Assembly: GCF_001402795.1 (NCBI RefSeq)
Contig: NZ_LIRE01000241.1
Location: forward strand, 1-36,391
DNA: 36,391 bases
Direction: 5' to 3'
Origin: Pseudanabaena sp. 'Roaring Creek'
Lineage (GTDB): Bacteria > Cyanobacteriota > Cyanobacteriia > Pseudanabaenales > Pseudanabaenaceae
The notes below the pieces were generated by a model. It was not told the DNA's origin and did not search any database. It saw only the letters and a list, made by a program, of their open reading frames with translations. Shown here piece by piece: positions 244 to 29,027 of this stretch. The position numbers and the translations under genes are program-made. The stretch's first letter is position 1. Every line of letters starts with the position of its first letter.

Positions 244-1092
244 CTATAGCTTTTGCCAAAGTTGAATCTCATAGCAGAGATGCTTGTGAAAAAGAGTCGA
301 GGCATTAAGCCCTTCCGTAATCAAGTTTTTGATTGACTTGCCAAAGAAGTAACGCATAACTTTATAGATCGGTGGAACTGCGATCGCGATTAGATTGCCG
401 ATATATTTCAGGGTCGAAACGCCAAAGGTTTGGAAGCTTTGCACGCAGATATCCAAAGTTGGAGCAATATGTGCCGAAATATCATCGGTCTTGACTAACT
501 TAAATCCCGCCTTCTCCATTGATTTATGCAGATCGGCATTAATCAGACAGTTAGAGAACATTCCTTCCTTATATTCAGGATCTTTCCGTAACATATCTGC
601 TAACAGCACATAACTGCCAGATTTCACCACCACAGCCGAACCTTCTGCGATCATTTCTGGCGACATATATTGAGTGCTTTCGCTAAATAGAATTAGATCG
701 TAGGTAAGTTGTGTGGAATACTTTTGCGGCGCTTGCACAAATTCTTGAAAGGTATCAATATGGAATAAAGCTTTTCCCTTGGTACGTTCCAAGAAATTAG
801 CTTGTTGAAGTGGATCGGGAGCAAGTCCCTCAACTTGTAAACCTTTCTCAATCATCGCTACAGCATTATCTCCATTGCCACAACCAACATCTAATACGGA
901 ATGAATATCGGTGGGAAGGAAAGCGAGAAGATGGGTCGCGTAGGCTTCTTGAGCTACACGCAACTTGGTAACCGTCAACTCATCTGTGGGAGATGGAATT
1001 GGTTCCCAATAACCATAGTGAAGATAGGAAGAGCCTGTCAAATCTCGGTAATATTGCAGTGCAGCGTTTTGGTAGCGAATTACATTGTTCAT
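244..1092 (-). CDS. Class I SAM-dependent methyltransferase, substrate unknown
   Basis: The 282-residue protein has a Rossmann-type methyltransferase core. Motif I VLDVGCGNGDNA (about residues 66-77) is the glycine-rich loop that holds S-adenosylmethionine. A later YDLILFSESTQYM segment fits motif IV, and VVVKSGSYVLLADML fits the strand following it. The N-terminal stretch with HYGYWEP resembles the start of small-molecule methyltransferases of the UbiE/sterol type. A hydrophobic segment near residues 230-245 (YIGNLIAIAVPPIYKVM) suggests membrane contact. It stands alone between a palindrome and the riboswitch gene, so context gives no substrate. The fold is secure from motif I; the substrate is not known. 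Confidence 0.8.
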   Translation of the reverse strand: MNNVIRYQNAALQYYRDLTGSSYLHYGYWEPIPSPTDELTVTKLRVAQEAYATHLLAFLPTDIHSVLDVGCGNGDNAVAMIEKGLQVEGLAPDPLQQANFLERTKGKALFHIDTFQEFVQAPQKYSTQLTYDLILFSESTQYMSPEMIAEGSAVVVKSGSYVLLADMLRKDPEYKEGMFSNCLINADLHKSMEKAGFKLVKTDDISAHIAPTLDICVQSFQTFGVSTLKYIGNLIAIAVPPIYKVMRYFFGKSIKNLITEGLNASTLFHKHLCYEIQLWQKL

Positions 1093-1388: not shown

Positions 1389-1838
1389 TCATTTAGGGTA
1401 TGTTTCTAAGCAAGGCTGAAACTCTTCCCAACGTCGGTTAACCTGCTCAAAACAATCGGGGGGAAAGATTTTCAGATTTTGGAAAAGATTGATTTCGAGA
1501 TGCTGCTCCATCTTCATCAGGAGAACAATCTCTTTGTCTGGGGCATAATTCCCAACGGCTTGCACAAGAATAGCGATCAATTCTTGATCGAGAGAAAAAG
1601 CTTGAATTGAAGAGATTAATTCTTGTTCAGCAACAAATTGAGATTTGAATTGGGTAACTTCTAAGCCTGTGTTACTAGGAGCGATCGCATTGCGATCGAC
1701 ATCACAAAACACGACTCCTCGACCATGCTGCAAAAAGCCTTGCCATGCCGCATAGCCGATCATCATTAGGTTTGCGTGAATAAAGCTTTTTTGCCAATAG
1801 CCAAAATTGCCTTGCCAATCACTATCTTTTAACTTCAT
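1389..1838 (-). CDS. Unknown 149-residue protein under a cobalamin riboswitch
   Basis: I do not recognise this protein family. The product is 149 residues, soluble-looking, with aromatic-rich N-terminus (YWQKSFIHANLMMIGYAAWQGF) broken into a GRGVVFCDVDRN segment and a C-terminal acidic and aromatic half with a PPDCFEQVNRRW stretch. There is no signal peptide or clear membrane segment. The start is supported by GAGG six bases before ATG. The feature that matters is upstream: a well-formed cobalamin aptamer ends about 37 bases before the start codon on the same strand, so synthesis should fall when adenosylcobalamin or a related corrinoid is plentiful. A role in cobalamin uptake, handling or a B12-sparing reaction is inferred from this alone. 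Confidence 0.75.
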   Translation of the reverse strand: MKLKDSDWQGNFGYWQKSFIHANLMMIGYAAWQGFLQHGRGVVFCDVDRNAIAPSNTGLEVTQFKSQFVAEQELISSIQAFSLDQELIAILVQAVGNYAPDKEIVLLMKMEQHLEINLFQNLKIFPPDCFEQVNRRWEEFQPCLETYPK

Positions 1839-1874
1839 CTATTACCTCGTAGATGTAGATTTATGGATTTGAAA

Positions 1875-2005
1875 TGAGCTTCGGCGGGCGTTCTGACTTT
1901 TTCTGCTTTTCAACAGAAAATCACAGTTGCGGGACAGCGTTGGATTTGCACCAATCTTTCCCCATTACTTTTAGTGACTGCTCCTCACTAAAACCGAAAG
2001 CTGAA
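1875..2005 (-). promoter_or_regulatory. Cobalamin (B12) riboswitch
   Basis: Read on the minus strand, this stretch carries the hallmark B12-box series in order: GGTGCAAATCC, then CGCTGTCCCGCAACTGTGA, then AGTCAGAACGCCCGCC. AGCTTTCGG at the 5' end pairs imperfectly with CCGAAGCT at the 3' end to close helix P1. A TTTTAGTGA...TCACTAAAA hairpin near the 5' side and TTTTCTG...CAGAAAA near the 3' side fit peripheral helices. It sits directly before the gene at 1389-1838. No strong terminator is visible between the aptamer and the GAGG ribosome site, so control of translation is more likely than attenuation. Confidence 0.93.
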
Positions 2006-2050
2006 GTCAAAGTATAACATCTATGGCGATTAGCAATTTTTCATAGGCAG

Positions 2051-4501: not shown

Positions 4502-7500
4502 ATGAGTGTTACTGATGTTAATCAAAAATCTTTAAAGAGGTTGGCGCGCATTATCCAGCTAGCGCAAGGGTTTTCATTGTCGATCGCTTTATGTAACTAT
4601 CGCGTATTGCAGGAGCGCGTATTGCAAGACTTGCGATCGCAATTAGCCGAAAATAATTTGCCAGAAACAGCGATCGCCATACTTGAACTGCAACCTGATA
4701 CTAAAACTTTGCTAGCACCGATTCAGGAATTGATGGACAAGGTGCATCGATTGCCAACTGAGCAGAAACCCAAGGTATTAATGGTATTGGGGTTAGATGC
4801 GGTTACGGAAATTGAAGTAGTTCTGAAATCAGCAAATCGGGTGCGGGAGGAATTTGCCAATTGTTTGGAATTTCCGATGGTACTGTGGATGAACGATCGC
4901 ACTCAGGATATTTTGACTCGTGAGGCAAGCGATCTGGCGAACTGGACGACAGCAGGAGCGATCGCCTTTCAGCTTGGGGTAGAAGAACTAAAGGAGTTAG
5001 TACGAGAATCAACGGAGGCAATGTTCGCGCTCTTTCACGACATTGATAAACGAGAAACGGCTCTCAGTACAGAAACCTCCCCTAGTTCGCAACATTTTGA
5101 ACTGATGTCAGCGATCGCTGAACTGGAAAATCAAGAGAGCGAGATCGCTCCAGAATTACGAGCCAACCTAAATTTTGCCTTTGGATGCATTGCTTTCACC
5201 AATAGGGAAATCGCAAAAGCGAAAGAATTTTTAAAAAAATGCTCGGCAATTTTTGCAGTTCGAGATCGACTCAAGCAGGCTATTTGTCAGTTGCAATTGG
5301 GGATGTGCGAGTTCGGGCTCGCCTTTAGCGATCGCTACCACAAGCATCCCTTTTATGAATCTGCGAGGGAATATTTTGCCCAAAGTATTGACTTATTCCG
5401 TCAATTGGATCGTTGGGATTTGGTAGCAATATATATTAATTTTTTGACGGTGACAATGGAAGAATTGCAGAGTGAGGGGCTAGAAACTCTCGCTCGCGAA
5501 GCTTTAGCGCTGAGGCAAATCTACCCCAATCAATTGAGAGAAGCCCACGATCTCGCCATGTTATCCTCAGTCAAACTCGCAGCAAAGGACTATCGCGCTG
5601 CAAAAGAGTTTGCCGAATCAGCTTTAGCGCTCTATCGCGAAGGGGAAGCGTTGAAGTTATCGAATTTAACTTTTTCCCAACGCTATGGCTATGGAAAGTA
5701 TGAAGTCTGGTTAGCAAGGGCTTTGGAGGGATTGGGCGATCGCCAAGGGGCGATCGCGAGATTAGAGGGCGTAAAAGCTAGCTGGCGGCATCAGTACGAC
5801 GCTCAGATCTACGTGTCGGTTTTAAGAGAATTGCGATCGCTCTATACCGCCGCAGGTCGATACCTAGAAGCCTTTGAAACCAAACAACATCAGCGATCGG
5901 TGGAGCAGCAGTATGGACTACGCGCTTTTATTGGTGCAGGTACGCTGAATCCTAAACGAGAAGGAAATAATCCCGATCCCTATACGAATGTAGCGCCGCC
6001 ACCCGATGAGATCGCTCAAGAGATTGAGGCTTCGGGTAGAATGCCAGATGTGAAGAACTTGGTCGATCGCATCGGTCAGGCGCGATTTCCCTTGACTGTA
6101 GTGCATGGGGATTCGGGGGCGGGGAAAAGTTCGATTTTGAGTGGTGGGGTGATTCCTGCTTTAAGATTCAGGGAAAGCTTTGATGGGCGCAGGGTTTTAG
6201 TTTTAGCCGTCAATACCTATAAGGATTGGAGTGGTGAAATTCGGCGGCAGTTACAGAATTATTTTCCCAATCGCGATCGCGATATCGATCCGATTCATCA
6301 TTTCAAGCGGAATATTGATGAGAATTATTTGACGGTATTGATATTCGATCAGTTTGAGGATTTCTTTTTTAAGAAGGAAGATTTTCGCGATCGCCTGCCG
6401 TTTTATAAGTTCCTTAAGGCTTGCTTGCATACGGATTTCGTGCGGGTGGTGCTGTCTCTGCGGGAGGACTATCTGCATTATTTATTGGAATGCGATCGCG
6501 CGGTAGATCTAGAAAAAGTAGAAAACGACATTCTCGGCAAGCAGATTCGTTACTATTTGGGGGACTTTACGCAGGATCAGGCGCGACAGGTAATCGAGGC
6601 TTTGACTAAGCGATCGCAGTTACGTTTGGAGCCTGAGTTAATCGATCGCCTTGTGACGGATTTGAGTGGTGAGCAGTTGCGGATTTTGCCGATTGAGTTG
6701 CAGGTGGTGGGGGCGCAGTTGGAGTCAGAGAATCCTCCTATTTCTACGCTTCAGCAATATCTGGCTCTGACTAGCAGTGATATGGCTTCGCGCCGACCAT
6801 ATCACAATAATTCTGAGAGTAGGGGACGTAAGCCAAGTGAGGTGTTGGTGGAGCGGTGGTTAGAAAATGTGGTGCGGGATTGTGGGGTAGCGAATAAGGA
6901 TTTGGCGGAGAGGGTGTTGTATGCGTTGACGGGGAATGAGGAGAAGCGTCCACAAAAGACGCAAGCGGAACTTGCGGCGGAGTTGTTGGGGGTGGGATCT
7001 GATAATGGTTTTCGATCCCCCCCAGCCCCCCTTAAAAAGGGGGGAGAAGAGTTAAGCCAAGTCTCCCTTGTGAGGCATGGAGAGTTAAGCCAAGTCCCCC
7101 TTTTTAAGGGGATCGAACCTCTCAACGAAGCAGAAAATCTCTCGCTAGTGCTGGCGGTTCTGGTTGGTTCGGGGCTTGCTTTTCGGGTGAGTAGTTCGCC
7201 TGATGACCGTTTTCAGTTGATTCATGATTATTTGGTTAGCTTTATTCGCAAAAAATATGTCTTCGGTATGGCGGAAGAGTTGCGGATGACCAAAGAACAG
7301 TTGCGATCGGCTTTAGTTGAGAAAGATAACGCCTTAGCAGAGAAAGATAAAGAACTCCAACGTGCTGAAATTGCCGAAATCGAAGCTTTAAGTATTTCCT
7401 GCGAAGCTTATTGGCTTGCCCATAAGGAGCTAGACGCGATGGTGGCAGGATTAAGAGCAGCAAGGCGCATCTTCGATCCTAATATCCGCAAGATTATTCC

Positions 7501-9376
7501 TAACTATATTGAGGGGAGAACCTTTGGGCGATTCTGGGAAGTCATCTATAACATTCGCGAAGCTAATCGGCTTGAAGGTCATAGCAATGGAGTTAGGAGC
7601 GTTGCCTTTTCTCCTGATGGTAAAATCATCGCATCTGGCAGTTTTGACAACTCTATCAAGCTATGGAATCTTGAAGGAAAAGAACTGCAGACGCTGACGG
7701 GACATAGTAATGGGGTTAGGAGCGTTGCCTTTTCTCCCGATGGCAAAACCATCGCATCTGGTAGTTTTGACAAATCCATCAAATTATGGAATCTCGAAGG
7801 GAAAGAGCTACGGACGCTGACAGGACATAGCAATGCGGTTTTGAGCATTGCTTTTTCTCCAAATGGCAAAACTATTGCATCTAGCAGTTCTGACAAAACA
7901 ATCAAATTATGGAATCTCGAAGGAAAAGAACTACAGATGCTAAATGTGCATAGTACAGTTTTGAGCGTTACCTTTTCTCCTGATGGTAAAATCATCGCAT
8001 CTGGCAGTTCTGACAAAACGATCAAATTATGGAATCTTGAAGGTAAAGAACTACAGACGCTAACTGGTCATAGCAATGACGTTTTGAGCGTTGCCTTTTC
8101 TCCTGATGGTAAAACTATCGCATCTGGCAGTGATGATAATTCCATCAAGCTATGGAATCTTGAAGGTAAAGAACTGCAGACGCTGACTGGGCATAGCAAT
8201 AAGGTTAGGAGTGTTGCCTTTTCTCCAGATGGCAAAACTATTGCATCTAGCGGTTTTGACAAATCTATCAAATTATGGAATCTTGAAGGTAAAGAACTAC
8301 AGACGCTGACTGGGCATAGCAACAGGGTTAGGAGCATTACCTTTTCTCCAGATGGCAAAACCATTGCATCTGGCAGTTCTGACAAATCCATAAAGTTATG
8401 GAATCTTGAAGGCAAAGAAATACAGATGTTCAGAGGTCATAGCAATGATGTTAGGAGCGTTGCCATTTCTCCTGATGGCAAAACTATCGTATCTGGCAGT
8501 TCTGATAACTCCATAAAGTTATGGAATCGCGAAGGTAAAGAAGTACGGATGCTGACGGGTCATAGCAGTGGGATTAATAGCGTTGCCTTTTCTCCTGATG
8601 GAAAAACCATCGCCTCTGGTAGTTATGACAAATCCATCAAATTATGGAATCTTGAAGGGAAAGAACTACGGACGCTTATTGGGCATGGCAATGCGGTTTT
8701 GAGCGTTGCCTTTTCTCCTGATGGCAAAACTATCGCATCTGGCAGTGATGATAACTCCATAAAGTTATGGAATCTTGAAGGTAAAGAAATACAGATGTTC
8801 AAAGGGCATAGCAATGGGGTTAGGATCGTTGCCTTTTCTCCTGATGGCAAAACTATCGCATCTGGCAGTTCTGACAAAACTATTAAATTATGGGATATCG
8901 AAGGAAAAGAACTGCGGACACTCACGGGGCATAGCAGTGGGGTTAATAGCATTGTCTTTTCTCTTGATGGTAAAATCATCGCCTCTGGTAGTTATGATAA
9001 AACCATCAAATTATGGGATATCGAAGGGAAAGAAATACAGACATTCACAGGGCATAGTAGTGAGGTTAATAGCGTTACCTTTTCTCCTGATGGCAAAACT
9101 ATCGCCTCTGGTAGTTATGACAAATCCATTAAATTATGGAATCTCGATGGTAAAGAACTACAGACATTGACCAATCATAGCAATGGGGTTTGGAGTATCA
9201 CCTTTTCTCCCGATGGTAAAACCATCGCATCTGGTAGTTATAACAACGCCATCAATATATGGGATTTAGATCCAGAGTTAGCAATTTCTGAAGCCTGCGA
9301 TTGGCTTCGTCCATACCTCACCAATAACCCCAATGTTTCTGAAAGCGACAGACAACTTTTAGAAAGTAAAAAGTAG
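4502..9376 (+). CDS. STAND NTPase with 14 WD40 repeats
   Basis: This 1624-residue protein has four parts. Residues 1-190 form a domain shared with the paralog at 23889-29027 (both have a CNYR motif near residue 31-50). Residues 200-480 are helical and TPR-like, ending in EQQYGLRAFIGAGTL. An NTPase follows with Walker A GDSGAGKSS (536-544) and Walker B LIFDQFEDFFF (613-623), as in the nSTAND1 group; LIHDYLVSFI closes its winged-helix or helical part. From residue 1024, 14 WD40 repeats of 41 residues (one of 40) fit two seven-bladed propellers. Such proteins oligomerise when the repeats sense a trigger. Residues 837-871 are an inserted C-rich repeat. The stop codon lies inside a mobile 119-bp repeat, so the C-terminus may be altered. 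TAAGGA precedes the start. Confidence 0.9.
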   Translation: MSVTDVNQKSLKRLARIIQLAQGFSLSIALCNYRVLQERVLQDLRSQLAENNLPETAIAILELQPDTKTLLAPIQELMDKVHRLPTEQKPKVLMVLGLDAVTEIEVVLKSANRVREEFANCLEFPMVLWMNDRTQDILTREASDLANWTTAGAIAFQLGVEELKELVRESTEAMFALFHDIDKRETALSTETSPSSQHFELMSAIAELENQESEIAPELRANLNFAFGCIAFTNREIAKAKEFLKKCSAIFAVRDRLKQAICQLQLGMCEFGLAFSDRYHKHPFYESAREYFAQSIDLFRQLDRWDLVAIYINFLTVTMEELQSEGLETLAREALALRQIYPNQLREAHDLAMLSSVKLAAKDYRAAKEFAESALALYREGEALKLSNLTFSQRYGYGKYEVWLARALEGLGDRQGAIARLEGVKASWRHQYDAQIYVSVLRELRSLYTAAGRYLEAFETKQHQRSVEQQYGLRAFIGAGTLNPKREGNNPDPYTNVAPPPDEIAQEIEASGRMPDVKNLVDRIGQARFPLTVVHGDSGAGKSSILSGGVIPALRFRESFDGRRVLVLAVNTYKDWSGEIRRQLQNYFPNRDRDIDPIHHFKRNIDENYLTVLIFDQFEDFFFKKEDFRDRLPFYKFLKACLHTDFVRVVLSLREDYLHYLLECDRAVDLEKVENDILGKQIRYYLGDFTQDQARQVIEALTKRSQLRLEPELIDRLVTDLSGEQLRILPIELQVVGAQLESENPPISTLQQYLALTSSDMASRRPYHNNSESRGRKPSEVLVERWLENVVRDCGVANKDLAERVLYALTGNEEKRPQKTQAELAAELLGVGSDNGFRSPPAPLKKGGEELSQVSLVRHGELSQVPLFKGIEPLNEAENLSLVLAVLVGSGLAFRVSSSPDDRFQLIHDYLVSFIRKKYVFGMAEELRMTKEQLRSALVEKDNALAEKDKELQRAEIAEIEALSISCEAYWLAHKELDAMVAGLRAARRIFDPNIRKIIPNYIEGRTFGRFWEVIYNIREANRLEGHSNGVRSVAFSPDGKIIASGSFDNSIKLWNLEGKELQTLTGHSNGVRSVAFSPDGKTIASGSFDKSIKLWNLEGKELRTLTGHSNAVLSIAFSPNGKTIASSSSDKTIKLWNLEGKELQMLNVHSTVLSVTFSPDGKIIASGSSDKTIKLWNLEGKELQTLTGHSNDVLSVAFSPDGKTIASGSDDNSIKLWNLEGKELQTLTGHSNKVRSVAFSPDGKTIASSGFDKSIKLWNLEGKELQTLTGHSNRVRSITFSPDGKTIASGSSDKSIKLWNLEGKEIQMFRGHSNDVRSVAISPDGKTIVSGSSDNSIKLWNREGKEVRMLTGHSSGINSVAFSPDGKTIASGSYDKSIKLWNLEGKELRTLIGHGNAVLSVAFSPDGKTIASGSDDNSIKLWNLEGKEIQMFKGHSNGVRIVAFSPDGKTIASGSSDKTIKLWDIEGKELRTLTGHSSGVNSIVFSLDGKIIASGSYDKTIKLWDIEGKEIQTFTGHSSEVNSVTFSPDGKTIASGSYDKSIKLWNLDGKELQTLTNHSNGVWSITFSPDGKTIASGSYNNAINIWDLDPELAISEACDWLRPYLTNNPNVSESDRQLLESKK
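7013..7115. repeat. C-rich palindromic repeat inserted in frame in the STAND gene
   Basis: The segment starts CGATCCCCCCCAGCCC and ends TTAAGGGGATCG, and has internal GCCAAGT(C) direct repeats. It encodes a low-complexity stretch containing RSPPAPLKKGGEEL. The paralogous STAND protein has no counterpart at this place: there the chain goes straight from the ELRTGLL helix to the VLEILIGSG helix. C-rich repeats of this kind, starting with runs like CCCCCCAGCCCCCC, are common in cyanobacterial genomes. Confidence 0.85.
7571..9280 (+). repeat. Tandem WD40-coding repeats (about 123 bp, 14 copies)
   Basis: Each unit encodes L-x-GHSN-x-V-x-S-V-x-FSPDGKTIASGS-x-D-x-SIKLWNLEGKEL. Copies are nearly identical at DNA level over long stretches, including silent positions, which points to recent duplication or conversion. 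The variable residues sit mainly at three places: the two after GHS, the two after V, and the residue before D-K/N in the GSxD turn. The fourth unit is one codon short. Confidence 0.95.
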
Positions 9377-23888: not shown

Positions 23889-26800
23889 GTGATTCAGAGC
23901 GAGCAGCCAATCTTTTTCTCAGAAAATGGACATTCCCTTAATGGACAATCCCTAGATAGGTTAGCTAGAGCGATCGGTCTGTTTCAGGGGAATTTCTCAT
24001 TAATTATTGTCAATTGCAATTACCGCAGTCTTCGCCAAAATATGTTGACTGCTTTGGCGGCAAAAACAGGTTTGCTCTTCCGCGAAATTTGGTGGCGAGA
24101 GTCCCACGAGACCCTATATGGTAAATTGCAAAACCTCTGGCGAGAAGGCGCGATCGATCATATTCCTGCCTTGATGTGTTTGGGGTTGGAGCAAACGCCA
24201 GCTACGAATTTAGAAAATTTATTTTTAGAAGCAAACCTCTTCCGCGATCGCCTCAAGCAATATATCAACTGTCCTTTGGTGCTGTGGTTGAGCGATCGCG
24301 AACTACAGCAATTATTGACTAGCGCTCCAGAGCTAGCAAGTTTGGCTGCCCCAGCGATTAAGTTCGCTTTGTCCCCTACCGAGCTATTTACAGAAGTTAA
24401 CCAGCAGGTGGATCGATTATTTGCGATCGCTAAAGATCTTCAGATTCCCATATTTTGGCAGGACACCAAAATAGATACCGAGCGCGAATCATTCTCTAGT
24501 AATGAGCTAGAACTTGCCCGCCAAGAATTGCGAAGGGCTGCTCTTGAGAAAAATGCTAAGAATGCTCATAGTTCTGAAAACTCTATCAAAAAAGCTGCTG
24601 GACAAGATAACTGTCATAACTTTAACGATCTCTTCAATAGCGATCTCTTCAATGGTGATCTCTTCAATGGTGATCTCTTTAAGAGTGATCGAGTCGATGG
24701 GCAAAGTGATTTCTTAGAATTAGAAGCAAAATTAGACTTTGCGATGGGACGATTATTGTGGCGCTCCTCCGATGCTCGCGATCGCGATATATACGAAGAA
24801 TCTCAAGGTACAGTCCATAGCCTTGCCCAAGTCTACTATCAATGCAGTCTTGCCTATTGGCAGAAATTGGATAGACCGATCGAGCGGGGGATCGTTTTAT
24901 TCTATTTAGGAAATTTGTGGTGGCATAATTCCTTTGTGAATGGAAGACATTCATCGACCTCTTGGGTCGCGGCGAAACAATTTTTTCAAGAAGCGATCAC
25001 TGCTTTTAAACAAGCCAATCAGTTGGAGTTAATGGCTAAGTATAGCCGAGCCTATAGCGGAGTCCTCGAACAGCTTAGGGATTGGGCAGAACTCCAAAAA
25101 TGGATAGAATCCCTACTGCCGCTACACCAACAAATGCCCCTCGAACTTGCCCAAGACTACGGTTATTTAGCCAAAATAGCTGTAGAAAAGGGGGAATGGC
25201 AGAAAGTGAAGGATTATTCCTGCAAAGCCCTAGCGACCCTAGAGCAAGTTCCTGCTTTTTATGAAGAGAACTTGATGCATAATTGGCTACGCCTGCGTCA
25301 TATTCAAATAGGTCAATACCAACTATTACTGACTCAGAGCTATCTCCAACTTAATGAGATCAAATTAGCATCTAGTTTAATCGAAGAAACGATCGCTAGT
25401 TTTAATCTGAACTACGAACCCAAGCTTTATATTCGCTTCCTCGATACTTTTCACGATCTTGCCTTCGCTCAAGGACGTTATCTTGAGGCTTTCCAAACTC
25501 GACAAAGACAGCGATCGCTAGAGCAACAATATGGGCTAAGAGCCTTTATCGGTGCGGGAACACTGCAACCCAAACAACTCTCTCCTTCTAGTCTTGCTGA
25601 GATCGAGACGAGTAGATTTGATCTTAATACTGGAGAAATTGCTGCCTCTGGACGAACTCAAGATGTTGAAAGGCTAGTTGAAAGAATTCTCTCCCTAGAG
25701 CATCAGCTCACTGTCATTCATGGTGAATCGGGAGTCGGAAAAAGTTCTTTGGTAAATGCAGGGCTGATTCCCGCACTATTGCAGCGATCGCTAACAGGTC
25801 AAGAATTACTACCGATCGAGATCCATATCTATACCAATTGGCTCAATGCTATTTCCTTAGCTGTTTATAAAAATTACGATCTCGGTTACAGCGATCCCGT
25901 AGCGGTCAAACCCTCTTCATCTTCCCATAAATTTGAGAAAGATAGGAGAGAGAATATGGATGAAAGACGCAGAAAAGGCGATCGCGACATTGTCAATTTA
26001 CTCCTTAAATTTAGGCAATTAGCCTTGAATGGGACACAGATTGTTCTAATATTTGACCAGTTTGAAGAATTCTTCTCCACCTGCTCCCAGCCGAGGGAAA
26101 GACAGATATTTATTGATTTTTGGCAAAACTGTCTGAAGATCCCCCAATTAAAAATAGTAATTTCCATTCGTGAAGATTATCTCCATCTACTATTAGAACT
26201 AGAATCTCCCCATGCTGAATTTGACATATTAAGTCGAAACTTCCGCTATGCCCTCGGCAATCTTTCCCCCTCGGACACCAAAGCTCTAATTGAGAACTTG
26301 ACAGCAAATGCTAATTTTCCCCTCGAACCGATTCTCATCGATGAGTTAGTGAGAGATCTCGCTGGCGATCGCGGTTCGGTAAGACCGATTGAGCTGCAAT
26401 TAGTTGGCTCACAAATTCAAGATCGCAATATTACGACCCTTGCCGCCTATCGAGCTGCTGGAGCGAAACAGCGGCTTGTCGAGCAGTCGGTGGAAGAAGT
26501 AATTCAGGCTTGTGGTAGTGCGGCCTTTATCGCCCAACAGATCTTGATCTTGCTAACGGACGAGCAGGGCAAACGTCCATTGCGTACCTATAATGAATTG
26601 CGAACGGGGCTTTTGTCCTACTCTGGCAATACGGTAGATCTCGATTTAGTTTTAGAAATCTTGATCGGATCGGGCTTAGTTTTCCAATTACCTGAAGTCC
26701 CCAGCAATCGCTATCAGCTAGTGCATGATTACTTGGTGCCATTTATTCGAGCTAATCAGGAAGCAGGTTTATTGGCTGAGTTGCGGAAAGTACGCTCCTC

Positions 26801-29027
26801 GGCTCAGCGCAGCGAAGCCAATCTCAACCGCTTAACCAAGTTCGCTTTGGTCGGTACAGTATTAGCTTTATTTGTGATGGTGGGGCTATCTTTTCAAGCA
26901 ATTCATCAACGCCAACTTGCAGAATTTGGTGAAATTGATGCATTGATCTCTTCGGCAAATTCCAGCTTTTTGCTGAATCGGCAATTAGAGTCTCTATCAA
27001 CAATTGTCCAATCAGCTAAAAAACTACGAGTTATTGATGAAGGATTGGATAAGACAAGAATTAAGCAATCAATGTTTGAAGGCTTGCAAACGATCGTTTA
27101 TGGTATTCGCGAGCGATATCGCTTTTATTCGCTGAAAATGGATGCTCCCTTTTATGCCGCCAAATTTAGTCCTGATGGTAAGATCATCGCATTGGGGGGC
27201 TTTGACGGTAGCGTATCTCTATATCAGAGCGATGGCAGCCCCATCTCGCGTTTAGTCGGGTTAAAAACGAGTGATATTAGGGGCTTGAGTTTTAGTCCCG
27301 ATGGTCAAAAAATTGCATCGTCAGGAAAAGGAAAGAGTGTCAGAATTTGGAATGTCAATTCTGGCAAGTTAATTGCGAAGTTCTATGCCCATCGAGATGA
27401 TATCCTGCGATTGAGTTTTCATCCTGATGGCAAAAGATTGCTGACGGGGAGTAATGATGGCACTGTCAAACTGTGGGATAGCGATCGCGGTGTCGAACTG
27501 CTGACCTTGAACCCTCAAAATGCTAGCAATAGCCCAGCCATTAGAGAAACTAACTTCATTCAAGATACCAGTTTTAGTCCCGATGGTAACTTGATCGTGA
27601 CGGCTAAAAATACGACGATCGCGCTTTGGGACTTGCAAGGTAATTTGTTAACTAACGCGAGCGTCCATGAAAAAGAACTTTACAATGTGAGATTTCATCC
27701 TGACGGTAAACAACTGTTAACCTCCGCTAGAGATGAGACGGTCAAGCTGTGGAAGATTAGCGATCAAAATCACCAAATTCAATTATTGCGGATGTTTAAG
27801 GGAAACTCAACCGATGTATTGAGTTTAAACTTTAGTGCCAATGGCGAGCGCATTGCTCTTGGTTCTCAAGACAACATGATCCAAATTCTCAATAATGAAG
27901 GAATCTTAGAAATGAAGTTAGGAGGACATACTGACGGTATCTTTGATGTTAACTTTAGCCCTGATGGGCGCTATCTCCTGTCTGCGAGTAAAGATCGAAC
28001 TGCTCGACTCTGGGATCTAAAAGCTACGCTACTAAACACTCTTTACGGGCATACCAGTACCGTTTGGTCGGTCAATTTTAGTCCTGATGGCAAAATGTTT
28101 GCCTCTGGTAGTGTTGATAAAAGCATTCGGCTCTGGAATGCCGATGGCACTCTCAAACAAGAACTAAAGGGACATGAGGATACGGTTTATGGGGTTAGTT
28201 TTAGTGCGGATAGTAAGAAGTTAGTCTCAGCCAGTAATGACAAAACTGTGAGAATTTGGGATGTTCAAACGGGTAAATTACTCCATTTGTTGAATATTCA
28301 TGGTGCTAACTTGATTTATGCCACCTTGAGTCCCGATCAAAAAATATTAGCGACCCTTGGTTGGGATAACAAAATCAAGCTATGGCAATGGAAGGATGAC
28401 GATCGCCCGCAGCTATTGCAAGTGCTAGATGGTCATACCCAAACAGTTTGGGCGATCGCTTTTAGTCCAGATAGCCAGAGACTCGCCTCGACTAGTAATG
28501 ATCAAACTGTCAAAATTTGGGATGTACGTAGCGGGCAAAATCTCCATACGATGGAAGCTCATGGCAATGGCGGTCTCTCGATTGCCTATAGCCCTGATGG
28601 TCAACAAATTGGCTCCGCTGGTAAAGATGGCAAATTGAAGTTATGGAACGCTCAAACAGGGGCGCTGGAGAAGGTAATTGCGGTTACTCCCGATTCTTGG
28701 ATTTATGGTATGAGTTTTAGTCCTGATGGCAAGGCGATCGCCACCGCCAATGCCGATAAAACCGTTACAATTATGGATCGGGCTAGTGGTAATTTACTCA
28801 AGACATTATCGGGGCATGGTGCTGAGGTCTATGCATTGACCTATAGTCCTGATAGTCAGAAAATACTGTCGGCTAGTCGAGATGGTACGCTCAAACTCTG
28901 GAATGCGGAGACCTTGGATTTTGACGAACTCGTCCAAAGAGGCTGCAACCTCCTCAACAATTATCTTAAATATACGCCAACCTTATCCCCAGAGATAAAA
29001 CAAGTTTGCATGTCACCTTTTAAATAG
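23889..29027 (+). CDS. Second STAND NTPase with 14 WD40 repeats and a membrane segment
   Basis: The 1712-residue protein is a full-length paralog of the one at 4502-9376. It shares the N-terminal domain (SLDRLARAIGLFQGNFSLII, then CNYRSL), the helical linker ending EQQYGLRAFIGAGTL, Walker A GESGVGKSS (612-620) and Walker B LIFDQFEEFF (720-729), plus LVHDYLVPFI. Two things differ: a hydrophobic segment KFALVGTVLALFVMVGL (about 984-1000) just before the propellers can cross the membrane, and the 14 WD40 repeats (from residue 1084) are diverged. There is a Asn/Asp-rich minisatellite near residue 250. The start is GTG at 23889, fitting the paralog's N-terminus. No ATPase or small helical gene lies beside it, so it works alone or with distant partners. 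Confidence 0.88.
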   Translation: MIQSEQPIFFSENGHSLNGQSLDRLARAIGLFQGNFSLIIVNCNYRSLRQNMLTALAAKTGLLFREIWWRESHETLYGKLQNLWREGAIDHIPALMCLGLEQTPATNLENLFLEANLFRDRLKQYINCPLVLWLSDRELQQLLTSAPELASLAAPAIKFALSPTELFTEVNQQVDRLFAIAKDLQIPIFWQDTKIDTERESFSSNELELARQELRRAALEKNAKNAHSSENSIKKAAGQDNCHNFNDLFNSDLFNGDLFNGDLFKSDRVDGQSDFLELEAKLDFAMGRLLWRSSDARDRDIYEESQGTVHSLAQVYYQCSLAYWQKLDRPIERGIVLFYLGNLWWHNSFVNGRHSSTSWVAAKQFFQEAITAFKQANQLELMAKYSRAYSGVLEQLRDWAELQKWIESLLPLHQQMPLELAQDYGYLAKIAVEKGEWQKVKDYSCKALATLEQVPAFYEENLMHNWLRLRHIQIGQYQLLLTQSYLQLNEIKLASSLIEETIASFNLNYEPKLYIRFLDTFHDLAFAQGRYLEAFQTRQRQRSLEQQYGLRAFIGAGTLQPKQLSPSSLAEIETSRFDLNTGEIAASGRTQDVERLVERILSLEHQLTVIHGESGVGKSSLVNAGLIPALLQRSLTGQELLPIEIHIYTNWLNAISLAVYKNYDLGYSDPVAVKPSSSSHKFEKDRRENMDERRRKGDRDIVNLLLKFRQLALNGTQIVLIFDQFEEFFSTCSQPRERQIFIDFWQNCLKIPQLKIVISIREDYLHLLLELESPHAEFDILSRNFRYALGNLSPSDTKALIENLTANANFPLEPILIDELVRDLAGDRGSVRPIELQLVGSQIQDRNITTLAAYRAAGAKQRLVEQSVEEVIQACGSAAFIAQQILILLTDEQGKRPLRTYNELRTGLLSYSGNTVDLDLVLEILIGSGLVFQLPEVPSNRYQLVHDYLVPFIRANQEAGLLAELRKVRSSAQRSEANLNRLTKFALVGTVLALFVMVGLSFQAIHQRQLAEFGEIDALISSANSSFLLNRQLESLSTIVQSAKKLRVIDEGLDKTRIKQSMFEGLQTIVYGIRERYRFYSLKMDAPFYAAKFSPDGKIIALGGFDGSVSLYQSDGSPISRLVGLKTSDIRGLSFSPDGQKIASSGKGKSVRIWNVNSGKLIAKFYAHRDDILRLSFHPDGKRLLTGSNDGTVKLWDSDRGVELLTLNPQNASNSPAIRETNFIQDTSFSPDGNLIVTAKNTTIALWDLQGNLLTNASVHEKELYNVRFHPDGKQLLTSARDETVKLWKISDQNHQIQLLRMFKGNSTDVLSLNFSANGERIALGSQDNMIQILNNEGILEMKLGGHTDGIFDVNFSPDGRYLLSASKDRTARLWDLKATLLNTLYGHTSTVWSVNFSPDGKMFASGSVDKSIRLWNADGTLKQELKGHEDTVYGVSFSADSKKLVSASNDKTVRIWDVQTGKLLHLLNIHGANLIYATLSPDQKILATLGWDNKIKLWQWKDDDRPQLLQVLDGHTQTVWAIAFSPDSQRLASTSNDQTVKIWDVRSGQNLHTMEAHGNGGLSIAYSPDGQQIGSAGKDGKLKLWNAQTGALEKVIAVTPDSWIYGMSFSPDGKAIATANADKTVTIMDRASGNLLKTLSGHGAEVYALTYSPDSQKILSASRDGTLKLWNAETLDFDELVQRGCNLLNNYLKYTPTLSPEIKQVCMSPFK
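24627..24686 (+). repeat. 15-bp minisatellite in the second STAND gene
   Basis: Four tandem units, GATCTCTTCAATAGC, GATCTCTTCAATGGT (twice) and GATCTCTTTAAGAGT, encode DLFNS, DLFNG, DLFNG and DLFKS. The array is in frame and lies in a linker between the N-terminal domain and the helical part; the first paralog lacks it. Confidence 0.9.

Follow-up and report, generated by a model that had tools for sequence, protein, structure and literature searches.

The locus examined here raises the question of what an uncharacterised protein does behind a cobalamin riboswitch. It lies in a window of 36,391 nucleotides, the whole stretch of DNA that was analyzed, from the genome of Pseudanabaena sp. 'Roaring Creek', which is close to that of Pseudanabaena frigida (94% protein identity). 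Four features of the window, listed in their order along the minus strand, are essential to the question:

1866..2013, minus strand: cobalamin riboswitch aptamer (RF00174, 51.0 bits, E 4.9e-10)
1836..1855, minus strand: expression-platform hairpin, CAUCUACGAGGUAAUAGAUG (loop motif, stem pairing and folding energy)
1389..1838, minus strand: 149-residue gene with an ATG start, of an uncharacterised cyanobacterial family with a CcmS-like fold (family, riboswitch link, fold and dN/dS)
244..1092, minus strand: gene for a class I SAM-dependent methyltransferase, probably the second in the unit (PF13489, 30.3 bits)

The riboswitch unit and its expression platform

An earlier note on this DNA had claimed a cobalamin riboswitch, and the Rfam covariance model bears this out: the match spans all of RF00174 (model 1-189) and scores 51.0 bits, where the gathering score is 31.5. 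The aptamer (2013-1866, minus strand) was recovered again in a whole-genome RF00174 search, together with two more matches in the same genome, on contigs 633 and 402. The match on contig 633 precedes a DUF1636 gene; that on contig 402 (L193:169-3639) has HupE, CobW and CobG genes behind it. Cyanobacterial cobW was said in a 2009 study not to be under B12 riboswitches (PMC2770081), and the cobW loci seen here contradict that statement.

The aptamer ends 28 nt before the ATG of the 149-residue gene and is followed by the 20-nt hairpin CAUCUACGAGGUAAUAGAUG (1855-1836, minus strand), the loop of which carries a Shine-Dalgarno-like GAGG (1845-1848); the final three bases of the hairpin are the AUG of the gene. 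This hairpin is identical among the Pseudanabaena leaders compared, and a P13/L13-like hairpin is conserved behind cyanobacterial RF00174 aptamers, with the loop motif following 108 of the 110 matches examined. The six stem pairs are 92% paired in the common class (36 distinct sequences) and 25-56% paired once the partner is slid; almost every change in the stem affects one side only, so covariation lends the pairing little support. The folding energy of the hairpin is -5.2 kcal/mol (shuffle z -1.2). A complement in L5 for an L5-L13 kissing loop was sought, and no consistent partner was found. The layout of the platform agrees with control of translation through a P13/L13-type element, in which the hairpin would mask the translation start when B12 is bound.

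The gene was thought in the earlier note to be the only one behind the switch, which proved wrong: the methyltransferase gene (1092-244) comes next on the same strand. Orthologs of the latter are present in 12 of 18 Pseudanabaena loci blasted (the 18 include same-species duplicates); they trail the family gene in most Pseudanabaena and also in Nostoc, Microcoleus and other cyanobacteria, and this gene is probably the second gene of the riboswitch unit. Long, near-perfect inverted repeats (REP/MITE-like; 189-237, 1182-1320, 1337-1387 and 2050-2096) flank the riboswitch gene and also stand between it and the methyltransferase gene. Elsewhere in the window, 4502-9376 and 23889-29027 encode very large proteins (1624 and 1712 residues) of related layout with WD-repeat-like units at the end, one of them adjoining an AAA/STAND-type ATPase gene.

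The platform can also open a short leader ORF. In the riboswitch-metE region of seven loci (L110, L147, L162, L164, L167, L106 and L107), the AUG of the hairpin starts such an ORF; in seven metE loci the leader ORF is of exactly 18 codons, e.g., MMKTSGFCDWFFVGILRL, and short leader ORFs of this kind are present at about 79 riboswitches. Their substitutions by codon position (106/112/122) have no bias, and coding is only predicted. The leader ORFs at L182, L184, L202 and L108 are overlapped by hairpins that resemble terminators and have T runs behind them, a layout like that of translation-coupled attenuation. B12 riboswitches of Mycobacterium tuberculosis likewise control a short ORF before the main gene, with coupling by stop/start overlap as in the cyanobacterial loci here, but differ in organism, platform and genes, and the cyanobacterial leader ORFs are only predicted (PMC11260477).

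A protein family behind cobalamin riboswitches

The 149-residue protein has no match in Pfam, no fitting family was found in Pfam and NCBIfam for it and 44 homologs, and a PDB sequence search gave a chance match only. A profile of the 44 homologs (A1) was searched against 291 cyanobacterial genomes, with membership set at E below about 1e-13, and 108 family copies were found in 83 of them. An RF00174 match lies within 8 kb upstream on the same strand for 99 of the 108 genes (76 of the 83 genomes), and the riboswitch-to-gene distance is exactly 28 nt in nine Pseudanabaena genomes. In an independent second genome set, 41 of 43 loci have the switch upstream on the same strand, and all 14 regions fetched around riboswitch-linked copies confirm the link. 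Some exceptions are contig breaks; in one genome (G082), one contig carries the riboswitch with the 5' part of metE, and another the 3' part of metE with the family gene. Coordinates read by hand revealed no RF00174 match within 8 kb upstream of the CcmS genes of three genomes (G056, G070 and G261) or of 16 remote paralogs, the latter from those Pseudanabaena genomes that had been searched with RF00174.

The riboswitch link is thus a family-wide trait. Since B12 riboswitches precede family genes throughout cyanobacteria, a cobalamin-linked role, as the earlier note had proposed, is strongly supported, although its further guess of a corrinoid carrier or uptake accessory fared poorly (see below). 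The riboswitch link also answers the refutation test that the earlier note had set for itself, namely homologs that never lie near the riboswitch. The family, of about 150 residues and uncharacterised, is so far confined to cyanobacteria: no member was found outside the cyanobacterial class in the phylum sample searched, phage records gave no match, and matches in plasmid records are on cyanobacterial plasmids only. In the literature searched, there was no report of the family and none on DUF1636 with cobalamin.

RF00174 is also the aptamer family that controls cyanobacterial metE, and many of the family loci use the same switch, but in the window the first gene encodes a CcmS-like protein and metE is absent. 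A metE cobalamin riboswitch of Synechococcus is reported, in a passage of PMC9313322 citing Perez et al. (2016), to have been validated in vivo.

Relationship to CcmS

AlphaFold models were made for the window protein (pLDDT 77.8) and for a second-subgroup member (pLDDT 83.7). For both models, the sole Foldseek match at E below 0.001 is CcmS (9iur, 8zlh), with E values of 2.1e-6 and 7.0e-6, a probability of 1.00 and moderate TM-scores of 0.50-0.61. Alignment of the family with 15 CcmS sequences by hhalign gives a probability of 91% (E 9e-7), and a CcmS HMM touches 19 of the 44 family members (best E 5.8e-6). CcmS and the family are similar in length and in the order of elements, and have in common a C-terminal PPxC[FY] motif with a near-invariant cysteine, whereas identity is about 17%. 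On these profile and fold comparisons, the family is a distant relative of CcmS. Identity of the window protein as a true CcmS was rejected, as it scores 16.3 bits (E 0.0067) against NF049993, the equivalog cut-off of which is 125 bits.

CcmS (slr1911, NF049993), the only significant structural match, is an assembly chaperone of beta-carboxysomes. It is a homodimer and binds the C-terminal peptide of CcmK1 (PMC11635287). In contrast, family genes lie in B12-riboswitch units and not in ccm clusters, their neighbors being metE, methyltransferase, desaturase, DUF1636 and CobW genes, and in some genomes CcmS and a family gene coexist. The residues of CcmS for dimer and peptide contacts (PMC11635287) are mostly not kept in the family, as judged by eye from the hhalign alignment. 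The fold suggests that the family protein might work like CcmS.

metE decay, gene partners and a possible function

In about 20 loci, metE is directly upstream of the family gene, and its stop overlaps the start of that gene by 11-17 nt, an arrangement that looks ancestral. In other loci (L162, L170, L175, L046, L148, L154 and L155), all that is left of metE is 45-194 codons of open frame, which retain its first and last codons and a 14-17 nt overlap, and the family gene is intact. Because breakpoints differ among L162, L170, L175, L046 and the L148 group, at least five independent-looking events of shrinkage by internal deletion are likely. From these shrunken frames it is unusually clear that selection kept the gene downstream rather than the enzyme. 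In L174, what is left of metE forms an in-frame fusion with the family gene. A plasmid of Acaryochloris (L222:4748-5017) encodes an 89-residue 'methionine synthase II (cobalamin-independent)', which is a metE remnant that lacks the greater part of the enzyme. In Pseudanabaena, MetH is present and MetE is absent, and the dN/dS of the family gene is 0.04-0.13 over 21 pairs, indicating strong purifying selection; the protein is therefore kept for itself.

Gene strings were compared for about 100 loci; the family gene recurs throughout, since the loci were selected by it. Its most frequent partners are metE, methyltransferases, fatty acid desaturases, DUF1636 and CobW, and a cyclopropane-synthase-like gene is seen as well; transporter genes are not usual partners among these loci. 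The unit of PCC 73109 runs on into a UbiH-family hydroxylase gene. Partners differ from genome to genome and no single client is indicated; this changing of partners suggests either several clients or a general one. In a tree of 129 copies, partner types cluster (36 changes, compared with 85 in shuffles) and second copies fall mostly in one group. The clustering fits partner-specific subfamilies, but plain inheritance of gene order may also account for it. B12 riboswitches before a desaturase gene and before unknown genes were noted in a metagenome study of 2007 (PMC2211319).

We consider it about an even bet (probability roughly 0.5) that the family is an adaptor or chaperone of the enzymes encoded with it. 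The CcmS-fold protein would be made when B12 is low, and would act as a small, probably dimeric, CcmS-like adaptor/chaperone that holds a peptide of its client enzymes. The likeliest clients would be the low-B12 enzymes encoded alongside, including MetE where present; where MetE is absent, SAM-dependent methyltransferases or lipid/quinone-modifying enzymes might take this place, and the candidate in the window is the methyltransferase at 1092-244. A fuller history is more tentative: a CcmS-fold chaperone/adaptor family devoted to low-B12 metabolism might have arisen coupled to metE and outlived it. In-frame deletions would have whittled metE to a short ORF with the sole role of coupling translation from the riboswitch to the gene of the chaperone; in Pseudanabaena, that gene might have moved directly onto the switch.

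Other explanations share parts of this evidence. The protein could serve, as subunit or scaffold, a single low-B12 pathway of lipid or quinone modification (desaturase, methyltransferase and UbiH-like hydroxylase) that substitutes, independently of B12, for a B12-dependent step. Desaturase and methyltransferase genes do recur, a UbiH-family hydroxylase gene is present in some loci, and a B12-independent isozyme was proposed in 2007 for the riboswitch-preceded desaturase (PMC2211319). We regard this as rather unlikely, as many copies are without one or all of these partners and no B12-dependent counterpart enzyme is known. A chaperone for MetE alone, with copies lacking metE as leftovers, would explain both the overlapping metE genes and the eroded metE before many other copies. 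That reading is weakened because metE has been lost while the family gene was retained: Pseudanabaena keeps the gene under the constraint described above, and intact copies with new partners are widespread. Also, metE is present and the family absent in about a dozen genomes, and metE of PCC 73109 is reported in a review to have relieved the B12 auxotrophy of PCC 7002 (PMC8066212). It is accordingly somewhat less probable still.

The suggestion of a corrinoid carrier or uptake accessory, here widened to a cobalt carrier, draws on the control of the gene by a B12 riboswitch and on the frequent presence of CobW and DUF1636 genes nearby. No corrinoid-binding Pfam or NCBIfam match or motif is present in any of the 44 members, there is no conserved histidine, the near-invariant cysteine is likewise invariant in CcmS, the fold matches CcmS only, and the usual partners are not transporter genes; we therefore consider this role improbable. 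Least probable by far is that the riboswitch link is due to chance or to passive hitch-hiking with metE. Ancestral coupling would indeed have carried the gene along, but the mini-metE ORFs retain their overlap and the platform AUG in Pseudanabaena is the start codon of the gene itself; as for chance, a genome has two to three switches, and the number of the 108 genes expected so close to one of them is estimated to be far below one. This reading is already disfavored.

The family is of interest beyond this locus. Cyanobacteria both produce and use cobamides on a large scale, and a conserved low-B12 protein that outlasts MetE suggests that the response to B12 shortage has a component not yet described. 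A sizeable unannotated family hereby gains a regulatory signal that tells when it is active, and its fold ties it to a protein already studied.

Remote relatives of the family (E about 1e-7) occur in several copies per Pseudanabaena genome and adjoin a RavA/bpMoxR-type AAA+ gene (L194:3247-3780, L195:2940-3410, L196, L197, L198, L199 and L201), where they possibly represent a third use of the CcmS-like fold.
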